From: Marinosulfonomonas sp.
GTDB lineage: Bacteria > Pseudomonadota > Alphaproteobacteria > Rhodobacterales > Rhodobacteraceae
Direction: 5' to 3'
Assembly: GCA_030625325.1 (NCBI GenBank)
Contig: DAOURA010000004.1
Span: forward strand, 1 to 36,428
DNA length: 36,428 nucleotides
In this document: in pieces, positions 9,929 through 26,574 of the stretch
Numbering within the stretch: the first letter of the stretch is position 1
Layout of the letters: each line of letters starts with the position of its first letter
The notes under the pieces: model-generated
The model's database searches: none
Told to the model about the DNA's origin: nothing
The model's input: only the letters and a program-made list of their open reading frames with translations
Program-made: the position numbers and the translations under genes

Positions 9929-9960
9929 GCCTCCGGCGGGAGTATTTCTGTAAAGAAAAA
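9929..9960 (+). repeat. Dispersed short intergenic repeat, copy A (divergent)
   Basis: This copy starts GCCTCCGGCGGGAGTATTT and ends in TAAAGAAAAA. It is the most divergent of four related copies in the window (others at 21232, 24542 and 26070). It lies between the convergent ends of amtB and the aminotransferase gene. Confidence 0.6.
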
Positions 9961-21209: not shown

Positions 21210-21262
21210 CGGGGCTTTGCCCCGTCGTGGGGCCTCCGGCGGGGATATTTTGAACAGAAGAA
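21210..21262 (+). repeat. Dispersed short intergenic repeat, copy B, with preceding hairpin
   Basis: The core GCCTCCGGC-GGGGATATTTTGAACAGAAGAA occupies 21232-21262. It is preceded by CGGGGC-TTT-GCCCCG (21210-21224), a six-base-pair hairpin. The element fills the gap between the convergent ThDP-enzyme and cobO genes and could act as a bidirectional terminator. Confidence 0.7.
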
Positions 21263-22320: not shown

Positions 22321-25300
22321 TCATAGCAGGCTATCAATTAAGGCACGGGCCGAATTTGATCGCGGGGCCCAGAGGCCGCGATCAATTGCTTCGGCCAGAC
22401 GTTCGGCGATTTCGCGCAAGGCCGGGGCGTTGTGGGTTTCGATAAATTCTCGGGTGTCGTCATCTTGCAGAAAAGCGGCGTGGACCAGATCGAAATGGTG
22501 GTTTTTTACCGCCCCCGTGGTGGCGGCAAAGGCGAACATATAGTCCACCGTGGCGGCGATCTCAAAAGCACCTTTATAGCCGTGGCGTTTGACGCCATCG
22601 ATCCATTTTGGGTTGACCACGCGGCTGCGTACCACACGCGCGATTTCGTCGTCCAGCGTTCGGATCACCGGGCGTTCCGGGCGGGAATGGTCGTTGTGGT
22701 AAATCGGGCGATCTTGTCCTTGCAGGGTGGAAACGGCGGCCGCCGCGCCGCCTTCAAACTGGTAATAATCGTCGCTGTCCAGAATGTCGTGTTCGCGGTT
22801 GTCCTGATTTTGCACGATGGCTTCGGTTTGGGACAGGCGGGTTTCGAATGTGGCGCGGTGCTGGTCGCCGTCACTGTCTTTGCCGTAAGCGTAGGATCCC
22901 CATTCAAGATAGGCCTCGGCGAGGTCAGATTTATCACCCCACAGGCGTTCGTCAATCATGGCCTGCAGGCCCGCGCCGTAGGCCCCGGGTTTGGAACCGT
23001 AAACGCGGAACTGGCCGGCTTTTCCCTCAACGCGGGCACGCATGGCGGCGGGGTTGATGTCATCCGGTTCATCCAGCGCCATGACAGCGCGCGCGGCACT
23101 GTCCACCAGTGCGATAAGTTGCGGGAATGCATCGCGGAAAAACCCCGATACCCGCAGGGTGACGTCAACGCGTGGGCGGCCCAGTGCGGTGTGTGGGATG
23201 ACCTGAAAGCCGGTAACGCGGCGGTTGGCGGCGTCCCATTCGGGTTTGACGCCCATCAGCGCCAGACATTGGGCGATGTCGTCGCCGCCAGTGCGCATGT
23301 TGGCGGTGCCCCAGGCGGTCAGCAGCATGGTACGGGGCCAGTCGCCAAAGTCTTGCAGGTGCTTTTCGATCAGAAGGTTCGCGGATTTCCAGCCAAGCTT
23401 CCACGCCGTCGGGGTGGGCACGGCGCGGCTGTCTACCGAATAGAAATTGCGCCCTGTTGGCAGGACATCCAACCGCCCGCGTGTCGGGGCACCGGATGGT
23501 GCCGGGGCGACGAAGCGCCCTGCAAGGGCGGTGAGGAGGCCCGCGCCTTCGGTCGGGCCGCAGGCGCGAATTTTTGGCAAAACCACTGTGTGGATCTCAA
23601 TGATCACTGCAGATGTCTGGTGCCAGTCCGGGGCTGGTTTCTGCCCGTTGATCAGTTGGGCGCACAGGATTTCCAGCCGTTCAACCGTGTCGCCGTTGCT
23701 GCGCCAGTTGTCGGGGCTGACCGCTTGCAGGGCGCGCGGGCGTGGGCCAGCCCATTTTTGCGCCATATCGCAATCAAGCGGGTCAAAGCCAAGGGTCAGG
23801 TCATTGGCCAGTGCACGGATCAGGCTGGCGTTGCCATCGTTGCCATCGCCGCGGGGCACCCGGACCAGTGCCATGGCCAGGTCCCGTTCAAGCCCGTCAA
23901 TGGGTGACTGGCCAAATATGTGCAACCCGTCGCGGATCTGGGCCTCTTTCAGCTCGCACAGGTAGGCGTCAAGCTTTGCAAGATCAGTGTCTTCGTCAGC
24001 GCCGGTCATGCCGGCGTCAACGTCCAGCCCGGTGGCAGAGGTAAGCGACAGGATTTCGCGGCGCAGGTGTTTGATACGGCGCGGGTCGACGCCTGCGGCT
24101 TCATAATATTCGTCAACCAGACCTTCCAGATCGCGCAGGGGTCCGTAGATTTCGGCCCGGGTCAGGGGGGGTGTCAGGTGATCAATAATCACCGCCTGCG
24201 CGCGGCGTTTTGCTTGTGTGCCTTCGCCGGGGTCATTGACGATGAACGGATAAATATGGGGCATCGGGCCGAGGATTGCCTCGGGGATACAGGTTTCAGA
24301 CAGGGCCAGCGATTTACCCGGCAGCCATTCCAGATTGCCGTGCTTGCCCATGTGGACAATGGCGTGGGCGCCGTGCTGATGGCGCAGCCAGAAGTAGAAC
24401 GCCAGATAGTTGTGCGGTGGCACGAGGTCCGGCGAATGGTAGGTGTCGGTCGGGTCAATGTTATAGCCGCGCGCCGGTTGCAGGCCGACGACCACATTGC
24501 CAAATTGCAGGACAGAGAGTTTAAAGCCGCCTTTGGCGACTGCCTGCGGCGCGGATATTTCTGAACAGAAGAATGGGTCAGACTGGGGCTTTCCCCAGCG
24601 GTTTTCGATCAGGTTTTTTACGTCCCATGGCAGGGCATTGTAGTGGGTCAGGTAGGTTTCCAGATTAAGGGTGACGCCACCCGTTTTTTGTGCGCGATCA
24701 GTTAGCCAGTTGGTTGGGCCAGACATGATTTGGCGCATCAGGGCGTTGCTGTTGGGGGGGGCGTTGGTGACGTGGTAGCCCTGATCAGCCAGTAGGTTCA
24801 GGCAGTGGATTGTCGCGGCGGGGGTGTCCAGACCGACGCCATTGGCAAGGCGGCCGTCTTTGTTTGGGTAATTGGCAAGGATTAGCGCGACTTTGCGTTC
24901 GGGGGGTGGGGTGTTGCGCAGGCTTGCCCAGTTGGCGGCAAGATCGGTAACAAAATCAACCCGGTCACCACGGGCCTGATAGGTGGCGATGGGGCATTGG
25001 GTTGCATCGTCAAAATAGGCTTGGCCCTTGAACGAAATGGCGCGCGACAGGATGCGGCCGTCGACCTCGGGCAGGGCGACATTCATGGCGATGTCGCGCG
25101 GTGACAGGCCGTTCAGGCCGTTGGCCCAGCTTTCCTCGGTGGCCGAGGACAGGACAACCTGAAACACCGGGGCGCTGTTGGCGGACGGTGCGTTCAGGGG
25201 GTTGGCGGCGGCTTTGGCGCCCTGATCGGCCGAGCCGACGGCAAAGGATGTGCAGTTCAGGATCACGTCTGGCGGGGCTTGGGAAAACAGGTTGTCGAGC

Positions 25301-26040
25301 GTTGCAGCCGACAGGGTGTCCTTTAGTGAGGCAACGAACACCGGTAGCGGGTTCAGCCCCTTGCGCAAAAGTGCGCGGGTCAGCCGGTTAATCGGGTTCA
25401 GCCCTGCACCCTGCAACAGGGCGCGGTAAAAGATGATCGGGATGGTGGGCGCGCCGGGGGTCCAGTTGTTGCGGATGGATGCCAGATCCGAGACACCGGC
25501 GCCGGGCCAGTAAAGGCCAGAGCGCAGCAGTGGTTTGGCCGCGGCGGGCTGTGTGCCGCCACCAAGCATTGATTTTGTGTAAGCCAGAAAATTCGTCGAA
25601 TTTTCAGGCCCGCCTTCGACGAAATAGGCCCAAAGGGATTGGTAATCAGCGTCTGAGACAGTTGAAAGGTTGTGCAGGTCGGGGTCTGGTTTGTCGTCGC
25701 CGGGCAGGGCAGCAAAGGGCACGCCAGCGGCATGCAGGTGGGCGGCGTATTGTTCCAGCCCGTATTTCCAGTAGGCGGCCCCGCCCAGAATTCGGGCAAC
25801 CACCAGCCCGGATTTTGTGGCGCAGTTTTCGATATGCAGGTCCACCGACATCGGGTGTTTCAGGTGGGTCAGGTTGGCCAGACGCAGGGATGGTGGGTCG
25901 GCCATTTCGCCGCGCGCCTGTGAAAGTGCCGCGAGTTCGGTGTCGGCCGCAGAGATGAACAGGACATCTGCCGGGGTCTGGCCCAGATCAACCGGTTCAC
26001 CGTCATCGACCGTGCCGGGGGTGGCGGCAAGAAGGTGCAT
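22321..26040 (-). CDS. cobN: Cobaltochelatase subunit CobN
   Basis: The large 1239-residue subunit of the ATP-dependent aerobic cobaltochelatase (CobNST), which inserts Co2+ into hydrogenobyrinic acid a,c-diamide. It begins MHLLAATPGTVDD, a standard CobN start. It carries the family segments GNVVVGLQPARGYNIDP, AHAIVHMGKHGNLEWLPGKSLAL and GPMPHIYPFIVNDPGEGTQAKRRAQAVIIDHLTPP. The last of these is the CobN/magnesium-chelatase H signature region. The C-terminal third contains WGTANMRTGGDDIAQCLALMG and the RVVNPKWIDGVKRHGYKGAFEIAATVDYMFAFAATTG motif. Length is near the family norm. Residues 490-500 are encoded by a copy of a dispersed repeat, a probable small insertion before KGGFKLSVLQFGN. CobS and CobT are not in the window. 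The ATG has no strong ribosome-binding site. Confidence 0.95.
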   Translation of the reverse strand: MHLLAATPGTVDDGEPVDLGQTPADVLFISAADTELAALSQARGEMADPPSLRLANLTHLKHPMSVDLHIENCATKSGLVVARILGGAAYWKYGLEQYAAHLHAAGVPFAALPGDDKPDPDLHNLSTVSDADYQSLWAYFVEGGPENSTNFLAYTKSMLGGGTQPAAAKPLLRSGLYWPGAGVSDLASIRNNWTPGAPTIPIIFYRALLQGAGLNPINRLTRALLRKGLNPLPVFVASLKDTLSAATLDNLFSQAPPDVILNCTSFAVGSADQGAKAAANPLNAPSANSAPVFQVVLSSATEESWANGLNGLSPRDIAMNVALPEVDGRILSRAISFKGQAYFDDATQCPIATYQARGDRVDFVTDLAANWASLRNTPPPERKVALILANYPNKDGRLANGVGLDTPAATIHCLNLLADQGYHVTNAPPNSNALMRQIMSGPTNWLTDRAQKTGGVTLNLETYLTHYNALPWDVKNLIENRWGKPQSDPFFCSEISAPQAVAKGGFKLSVLQFGNVVVGLQPARGYNIDPTDTYHSPDLVPPHNYLAFYFWLRHQHGAHAIVHMGKHGNLEWLPGKSLALSETCIPEAILGPMPHIYPFIVNDPGEGTQAKRRAQAVIIDHLTPPLTRAEIYGPLRDLEGLVDEYYEAAGVDPRRIKHLRREILSLTSATGLDVDAGMTGADEDTDLAKLDAYLCELKEAQIRDGLHIFGQSPIDGLERDLAMALVRVPRGDGNDGNASLIRALANDLTLGFDPLDCDMAQKWAGPRPRALQAVSPDNWRSNGDTVERLEILCAQLINGQKPAPDWHQTSAVIIEIHTVVLPKIRACGPTEGAGLLTALAGRFVAPAPSGAPTRGRLDVLPTGRNFYSVDSRAVPTPTAWKLGWKSANLLIEKHLQDFGDWPRTMLLTAWGTANMRTGGDDIAQCLALMGVKPEWDAANRRVTGFQVIPHTALGRPRVDVTLRVSGFFRDAFPQLIALVDSAARAVMALDEPDDINPAAMRARVEGKAGQFRVYGSKPGAYGAGLQAMIDERLWGDKSDLAEAYLEWGSYAYGKDSDGDQHRATFETRLSQTEAIVQNQDNREHDILDSDDYYQFEGGAAAAVSTLQGQDRPIYHNDHSRPERPVIRTLDDEIARVVRSRVVNPKWIDGVKRHGYKGAFEIAATVDYMFAFAATTGAVKNHHFDLVHAAFLQDDDTREFIETHNAPALREIAERLAEAIDRGLWAPRSNSARALIDSLL
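24542..24573 (+). repeat. Dispersed repeat, copy C, inside cobN and translated
   Basis: GCCTGCGGCGCGGATATTT-CTGAACAGAAGAA matches copy D at 26070 almost base for base. It lies wholly within cobN; read on the minus strand it encodes FFCSEISAPQA (codons 490-500) and keeps the frame open. Confidence 0.8.
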
Positions 26041-26069: not shown

Positions 26070-26100
26070 GCCTGCGGCGCGGATATTTTTGAACAGAAGA
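26070..26100 (+). repeat. Dispersed repeat, copy D, just upstream of cobN
   Basis: The core GCCTGCGGCGCGGATATTT-TTGAACAGAAGA lies 30-60 bases before the cobN start codon, in the 81-base gap after the GNAT gene. It differs from copy C at one base over about 31. Confidence 0.8.
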
Positions 26101-26121: not shown

Positions 26122-26574
26122 TTACAGGGTTTTTCCCATGAAAAGGCTGGCGGGGTGTTCGGGATAATCCCCAAACGGGCCCCGGGTTTTATAGCCGAGG
26201 GATTTATAGAGCGCGACGCCAGCGGCAAGTTTTGGCCCGGTTTCAAGGCGGATCAGGTTGTGGCCTGATGTTCGGGCCTGATCTTCGAGGTGCTGCATAA
26301 GTTTTCGTGCAGCCCCCGTGCCGCGCGCGTCCGGTGTTACGAACAGGCGTTTGATTTCAGCGTAAGTTTCACAATCACACAGGGCAACGCAGCCAATCGG
26401 TGTGCCACCCTTGCGTGCAACGAAGAACCGGACGCCGGGTTTGGCCAGTTCATCTGCGGTGAAGGAAAAGCATTCGTCGGCTGCATATACTGCACGCAGG
26501 GCAGTTTCGGAGCCGTTAATAAGGGCGCGACCTTCATCGGTCAGCGGGTTTTCCTGTGTGATTGTCAGGGTCAT
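26122..26574 (-). CDS. GNAT-family N-acetyltransferase
   Basis: A 150-residue acetyl-CoA-dependent acyltransferase. The GNAT motif A is visible as KRLFVTPDARGTGAARKLMQHLEDQA at about residues 74-99, with the R-G-x-G-A acetyl-CoA loop. It is followed by GHNLIRLETGPKLAAGVALYKSLGYK, motif B. The acceptor is unknown. Its ATG overlaps the cobW stop by four bases, so it is co-translated with cobW within the cobalt/B12 operon. It is not a known cobalamin enzyme, and its place between cobW and cobN appears to be an insertion into the operon. Repeat copy D follows it. Confidence 0.82.
   Translation of the reverse strand: MTLTITQENPLTDEGRALINGSETALRAVYAADECFSFTADELAKPGVRFFVARKGGTPIGCVALCDCETYAEIKRLFVTPDARGTGAARKLMQHLEDQARTSGHNLIRLETGPKLAAGVALYKSLGYKTRGPFGDYPEHPASLFMGKTL

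Follow-up and report, generated by a model that had tools for sequence, protein, structure and literature searches.

The window, by which we mean the whole stretch of 36,428 nt analysed here (Marinosulfonomonas sp., contig DAOURA010000004.1), carries cobN, a GNAT acetyltransferase gene upstream of it and four copies of a short repeat (Table 1). A repeat search returned copies C and D and the AG head-type copy, and a degenerate pattern recovered the identical three, with zero matches in 100 dinucleotide shuffles of the window; the fourth copy has a spacer that is one base shorter. Copy C is identical to the intergenic copy D at 30 of 31 bases and lies inside cobN. An earlier note, made from the sequence alone, had described copy C as a dispersed intergenic repeat that is translated in frame within this gene. 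Our searches bear this out for what is a full-length, conserved CobN, and the reading frame of the cobN ORF confirms the residues that the note had assigned to the repeat. From the open frame we infer that CobN is made with the peptide.

Table 1. Features of the window discussed in the text.
Feature	Coordinates	Strand	Remarks
AG head-type copy	9929..9959	+	Intergenic; convergent ends of ammonium transporter gene and aminotransferase gene
Fourth window copy	21232..21262	+	Spacer one base shorter; 3 nt from end of corrinoid adenosyltransferase gene
cobN (cobaltochelatase subunit CobN)	22321..26040	-	1239 aa; PF02514 CobN-Mg_chel, E 0
Copy C	24542..24572	+	31-nt dispersed element in cobN, antisense to the gene; residues 490-500 (FFCSEISAPQA)
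Copy D	26070..26100	+	Intergenic, between cobN and GNAT gene; 29 nt upstream of cobN start (26040)
GNAT acetyltransferase gene	26122..26574	-	Upstream of cobN; end 21 nt from copy D
Cobalamin riboswitch RF00174	28557..28775	-	121.7 bits; upstream of CbtA, CobW, GNAT and cobN genes (all minus strand)

Judged by its letters, the element is a REP-like dispersed sequence of ~31 nt, in which a 19-nt head, built of complementary arms that overlap, is followed by a spacer of ~3 nt that varies between copies and by a 9-nt tail. The head occurs 110 times at up to one mismatch in the window genome (G000, a 2.28 Mb assembly that is 91% complete), compared to 0 for the reversed control, and 103 of these copies were read in context. 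Their position profile shows T, then GCCTNCGGCGN'G at one end and an A-rich tail at the opposite end. T is preferred at position -1 before the head (76/103 copies), and conservation stops past about position 32. Tail wording varies between genomes, with few wordings in each (for example AACAGAAGA, CGAAAAAGA and CCAATTCGA in G000). Within G000, head and tail subfamilies are linked (positions 13-14 plus tail): 20 AG-head copies have CAAAGAAAA-like tails, and the tails AACAGAAG, CGAAAAAG and CCAATTCGA accompany GA heads. For G435, the genome of CobN locus L123, 53 copies were listed; among the 52 dispersed ones, the tail is AACAGAAGA in 49 and the head is AG in all, a uniformity that suggests recent spread or strong homogenisation.

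The arms covary. Positions 5 and 11 are complementary in all 103 G000 copies (CG 80, GC 13, TA 10). Across 308 dispersed copies from 13 genomes, the same positions, which the search patterns left free, were CG in 245, TA in 41, GC in 19 and other in 3. Positions 1 and 9 were GC in 297, CG in 10 and other in 1, although these were fixed in the own-genome search (102 copies) and limited to G or C elsewhere. Covariation at 5/11 and 1/9 thus indicates two overlapping arm sets, pairing 1-3 with 7-9 and 4-6 with 10-12. The copies favour gene ends: among the 92 G000 copies with both flanks, 37 lie between convergent genes, 53 between tandem genes (26 in one orientation and 27 in the other) and 2 between divergent genes. 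Some copies form facing pairs about a CCAATTCGAATTGG-like centre, making larger inverted repeats. Where the centre is CCAATTCGA(A/G)TTGG, the pairs are palindromes of 58-59 nt (L109:1785-1843, L116:2001-2059, L092:2001-2059 and L095:2001-2058), which we take to resemble REPINs.

At least three copies were found in 40 of 61 genomes (G000-G060) of the Rhodobacteraceae, a largely free-living family, and in 0 of 40 genomes of other families. One or two copies were present in 7 family and 4 other-family genomes, which is within the level of the reversed control (1-2 matches in 7/101 genomes) and therefore meaningless. An Rfam scan (E up to 1) of the window, L128, L135 and L187 returned the cobalamin riboswitch alone and no match to the element, and the element was not recognised in open-licence literature on repeats in Rhodobacteraceae, Roseobacter or Rhodobacter, or on the repeat letters. 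No transposase could be tied to it, as PF01797 (the RAYT-type, or Y1, transposase) is absent from the 91% complete G000 assembly and from 34 of the 37 family genomes searched; the domain was found in the other 3 and in 7 of 24 other genomes. On these grounds a RAYT-driven REP was set aside. The flanks of the 103 copies showed no conserved sequence beyond the T at -1 and no target-site duplication, although a site-variable duplication would escape such a profile. An intrinsic transcription terminator was likewise rejected, because four of five 31-mers fold no better than shuffles (best z -1.54) and the two tandem orientations are about equally frequent.

For the closest relative first aligned (G001, locus L032; same genus, 80% CobN identity), CobN reads DPFYEPGEVDCGRFKLS where the window CobN reads DPFFCSEISAPQAVAKGGFKLS. 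The segment comprises 34 residues in the window and 29 in G001, a net gain of 5, rising to 10 against the shortest CobNs in the alignment (24-residue segment). The earlier note had proposed a clean insertion of about a dozen residues. Aligned with relatives, the window protein does have extra residues, and the peptide is encoded by no element-free relative in the alignment, but the sister sequence does not fit a clean insertion: if the junctions are the ends of the element, ~16 nt of G001-type sequence (part of the F-Y-E-P-G-E codons) seems to have been replaced by 31 nt. An AlphaFold2 model of CobN residues 330-729, built from 54 aligned sequences (mean pLDDT 77.7), places the element at model residues 161-171. 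This stretch is mostly loop with short uncertain pieces, preceded by a helix (143-153) and followed by a strand (176-179). Model residues 166-170 have pLDDT < 50, and the loop is probably flexible. Of the surface loop that the earlier note had raised as a question, the model supports the loop. In a fold comparison the model matched M. tuberculosis CobN best (7c6o; TM-score 0.56 by query length, E 1.2e-22), and the solved CobN 9uk9 has a gap at the element site in the sequence alignment.

Unforeseen by the earlier note, this one CobN site is re-occupied across the family, and a second protein, BchB, also hosts the element. We assembled 110 CobN sequences (30 loci from G000 and its relatives plus 80 further loci), of which 106 were retained after removal of duplicate and short entries. 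Ten of these, all without the element, were left out of the tree (eight from other families, and two family members that are divergent), leaving 96 rows. Allowing up to 3 mismatches, the element was recognised in 23 of the 96, and neither its loop nor its orientation or frame varied; a search of both strands at the site gave antisense copies only. Carriers include Loktanella, Yoonia, Roseobacter CCS2, Pseudooceanicola, Marimonas, Maritimibacter and Pseudooctadecabacter, as well as uncultured Litoreibacter and Jannaschia; cultured species among them are Loktanella salsilacus (L172), Pseudooceanicola nitratireducens (L160) and Yoonia maritima (L187). The element follows the DPF codons, usually directly (extra residues intervene in L155, L160 and L179), and is read as xI(S/L/P)PPEA or a variant. 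A strict DNA pattern combining CobN codons with the element head matched 16 of 394 family genomes, all 16 inside CobN, with 0 matches for the reversed control; CobN of the searched type is present in 119 of the 394. Twelve of these matches span 56 nt, three 59 and one 74, so the tail-side junction falls mostly at one nucleotide. Head copies number 110, 44, 7, 13 and 9 in the CobN-site carriers G000, G007, G019, G032 and G049, respectively. Relatives with no head copy (G015, G018, G045, G054, G057 and G059) have a CobN site without the element, and so do several element-rich genomes (e.g. G001, G002 and G004).

The BchB copy of G437 lies between the Oxidored_nitro and PCP_red domains, in sense orientation, and reads ASGGSISGKMI. 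Among 29 readable BchB loci (L318 and L320 were left out), the element is also present in L294 (98% identical BchB), L295 (G032) and L312 (G270), and a pattern search of 295 genomes gave 4 matches and added G021. One of the 4, in G330, was discarded because its translation is not BchB, and a 3-mismatch reading in L306 was taken as chance. The linker is thus occupied in four genera (G437/G334, G032, G270 and G021), always in sense and in the frame ASGG[S/D]I; orientation and frame are constant within BchB and differ from those in CobN. Mapped on a tree of BchB, the label (four rows) requires three changes, of which two are forced. The same linker contains another palindrome-like sequence in L309, L310, L315 and L323 (GTCCCGGATCARGTCCGGGAC in L309 and L315, variants in L310 and L323), read as P[D/G]QVR[D/G], and linkers may be landing places for several repeat families.

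Coding copies are otherwise scarce. The search of the window genome that the earlier note had proposed left CobN as the sole copy, among the 103 read, deep in a predicted gene: of the 5 that overlap a prediction, four are no more than 86 nt from its start, which was taken in each case to be called too far upstream. A rough survey of five other genomes, made with a simple codon model, had 29 of 83 copies overlapping predictions. Seventeen of these translations were read. One, BchB of G437, is a recognisable protein that contains the copy well within its length; inspection by eye classed the remaining 16 (14 from G435 and one each from G439 and G442) as spurious or over-extended frames. The 12 overlapping copies whose translations were not among the 17 are all at most 79 nt from the start of a prediction. 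Within the roughness of the 83-copy survey, the data do not support numerous coding insertions per genome.

To ask where the CobN copies come from, we compared the head type and tail of 13 of them with the dispersed copies of their own genomes. Summed mean distance from CobN copy to own genome was 36.7, compared to 63.2 when permuted (0/100000 as low), and summed nearest distance was 19 compared to 42.7 (4/100000 as low), with kinship between genomes left in for both. Nine of the 13 have an exact own-genome match of head type and tail, and four have none, L185 among them. Ranked by mean distance, the own genome comes first for 5 of the 13 and second for 2. The clearest cases of own-genome wording are L187 ((A/C)CAAAGCGA in 11 of 13 other copies), L135 (GCAAAATGA), L143 and L123. 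L122, L131 and L155 fit their own genomes poorly (ranks 9, 5 and 7, the last hurt by a one-base shift), while L031, L128 and L160 rank 4-5 despite exact matches, as several wordings coexist per genome.

In the window genome itself, copy D is the closest match to copy C among 102 other copies read, with 1 mismatch against 3 for the runner-up. The position of D is occupied in G001 as well (L032, near 1453), by a copy whose head differs, being of CG/AG rather than GC/GA type. C and D thus share a change that G001 lacks, and they probably exchanged sequence after the window species and the G001 species parted. This favours the gene conversion between C and D that had been offered as an alternative in the earlier note.

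Inside the CobN copies, 98% of arm cells are paired, and 12 cells are doubly changed, compared to 3.2 in shuffles, although relatedness can inflate such counts. Slid controls were far lower; for two of the five arm-pairing measures the result was less extreme, being equalled or exceeded in 75/500 and 10/500 shuffles. Arms that are paired but differ from GCC..GGC occur in 7 of 23 CobN copies and in 10 of 206 dispersed copies from 12 other genomes. When the window's own copy is removed, the comparison is 7/22 vs 10/206 (Fisher 3e-4), nine of the 10 being in the L185 genome. The excess suggests that arms have changed within cobN while pairing was maintained, or that donors were rare; for the copies concerned, in-place change is more probable than a fresh copying event. 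The close relatives L213 (G334) and L135 (G437) have CobN copies that differ by a compensating GCC..GGC / CCC..GGG change, accompanied by an A to G residue change.

We consider it likely that a REP-like element from the resident pool was copied or converted into a flexible CobN loop and kept there as peptide. Under such a mechanism, resident-pool copies would repeatedly enter the low-confidence loop by copying or short-patch gene conversion, each time displacing a few nucleotides of the host. Nearly all entries into genes would be lost, those that do harm through their place, frame or orientation would disappear, and the survivors would therefore look targeted, whereas copies in flexible loops or linkers with a harmless frame would persist. 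In G000, C and D would be the likeliest exchange pair, and CobN would tolerate the peptide. What counts against copying from the pool is that the constant loop, orientation and frame are more regular than random insertion plus selection simply predicts. This constancy suggests an added bias in CobN, for which a candidate source is perhaps the likeness of the tail (GAAGAAG) to the DPFF codons. More tentatively, and with more doubt than belief on our part, cobN (and, at one place, bchB) could contain a preferred landing place at which the element is repeatedly installed and rewritten from the resident pool in one orientation and frame. If that were true, a conserved enzyme would carry a peptide written in the local dialect of its genome's intergenic repeats, and there would be a directed, ongoing route from non-coding DNA to protein.

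The number of independent entries depends on how far cobN sequence has moved between lineages. On a CobN tree built without the element-site columns, the element label (24 labelled rows, counting L175, which was dropped from later counts as too decayed) needs 16 changes, and well-supported branches force 13 of them. The mean over shuffled labels is 21.4, with 1/500 shuffles as low as 16, so the label is clustered and the sharing is partly by descent or transfer. A few insertions spread between genera by horizontal transfer or by recombination of short cobN segments could produce this clustering. L031, L122 and L123 have in common a segment length and the neighbouring residues AxGGF, which L032 lacks, a likeness that fits transfer. 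We nevertheless judge transfer an unlikely general explanation, given the wording of the copies. The L031 copy combines a GA head with a AACAGAAGA tail, and the AACAGAAG-tail copies of its own genome have GA heads in 18/18 cases, while all the dispersed copies listed for the L123 genome have AG. Moreover, L135, L187 and L143, near-neighbours on the tree, carry different own-genome tails.

A single ancient insertion into cobN, inherited vertically, lost many times and kept like the dispersed copies by gene conversion, would account for the single orientation and frame in the 23 rows and for the common tail-side junction in 12 of the 16 strict matches. Conversion would also yield own-genome wording, and possible decayed remnants were seen by eye in L142, L161, L162 and L166. 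However, 27 of the 96 rows, including the outgroup row L048 and L184, have an alternative motif, DCG. These rows are scattered among the element-bearing lineages, and DCG would have to re-evolve; in the 22-row clade that contains the window sequence, 13 rows have DCG and 2 the element. If DCG cannot re-evolve and descent is vertical, there were at least 8 origins on branches with support of at least 95 (10 on the full tree), a number that horizontal transfer of short cobN segments would reduce. We regard one ancient insertion as quite improbable.

That the element is kept for a role as nucleic acid (e.g. factor binding or antisense transcription), with the peptide as a by-product, seems very improbable to us. 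The arms do stay complementary, with compensating changes inside coding sequence, and the dispersed copies do lie at gene 3' ends. However, young copies would have intact arms too, 73 of the 96 CobN rows are without the element, and neither the folding of the 31-mer RNAs, no better than shuffles in four of five sequences, nor the orientation of the dispersed copies (26 vs 27) is distinctive. Chance or protein-level convergence on a Pro/Glu/Ala-rich loop, which does vary in length and sequence, can be dismissed almost entirely in view of a 31-nt likeness that includes tail and spacer (0 in shuffles), the compensating base changes and the own-genome wording.

Dispersed palindromes within proteins are already known from Rickettsia, as are scattered intragenic REPs, from the parts of the literature consulted (PMC10969869, PMC2229807, PMC3733652). 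Here, one and the same site has been occupied in many parallel cases within one family, and the enzyme concerned is conserved and has solved structures. Copying from the resident pool into CobN would have turned stray DNA into some ten amino acids of a vitamin B12 enzyme, a modest natural example of how a protein can acquire such sequence. The entry of elements into genes, their homogenisation and the cost of a translated repeat to a protein are now testable, as natural pairs of proteins that differ in having the element are available in the family, and cobaltochelatase activity can be measured.

Among known systems, the nearest in behaviour are the Rickettsia palindromic elements (RPE), described in the sections consulted as rickettsial elements of about 105-150 bp (PMC10969869, PMC2229807). 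As with RPEs in those accounts, dispersed palindromic elements occur in frame within unrelated protein genes, here with open frames through the conserved CobN and BchB, from which translation is predicted. Unlike RPEs, the element measures 31-32 nt, belongs to Rhodobacteraceae, is almost always intergenic in the copies read, and recurs at one CobN site. MITEs such as ERIC and RU elements are also non-autonomous, dispersed and, in the portions of the sources consulted, occasionally fused in frame with genes (PMC10969869, PMC2229807). Single 31-nt copies of our element showed no inverted repeats at both ends, and paired copies form larger inverted repeats.

REPs tagged GTAG or CGTC are portrayed, in the part of the source consulted, as sequences of 20-40 bp that are mostly intergenic between convergent or tandem genes, downstream of genes, partly in facing pairs and sometimes intragenic; the finding there of different REPs near the same recB site in two Xanthomonas species is an earlier hint of same-site intragenic REPs (PMC3733652). 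The words Rhodobacter, Ruegeria, Roseobacter and Paracoccus are absent from the main text of that paper. The element resembles REPs in size (~31-32 nt) and in its extragenic, gene-downstream placement (37 convergent, 53 tandem and 2 divergent of 92), and it has a palindromic stem, but as two overlapping three-pair arms rather than one stem. Its 103-copy consensus is without GTAG or CGTC, in contrast to tagged REPs, and no RAYT-type tyrosine transposase (PF01797) was found in G000, in contrast to the GTAG class. Thus, while it shares neither the size and host of RPEs nor the tag and transposase of REPs, the element works like an RPE.
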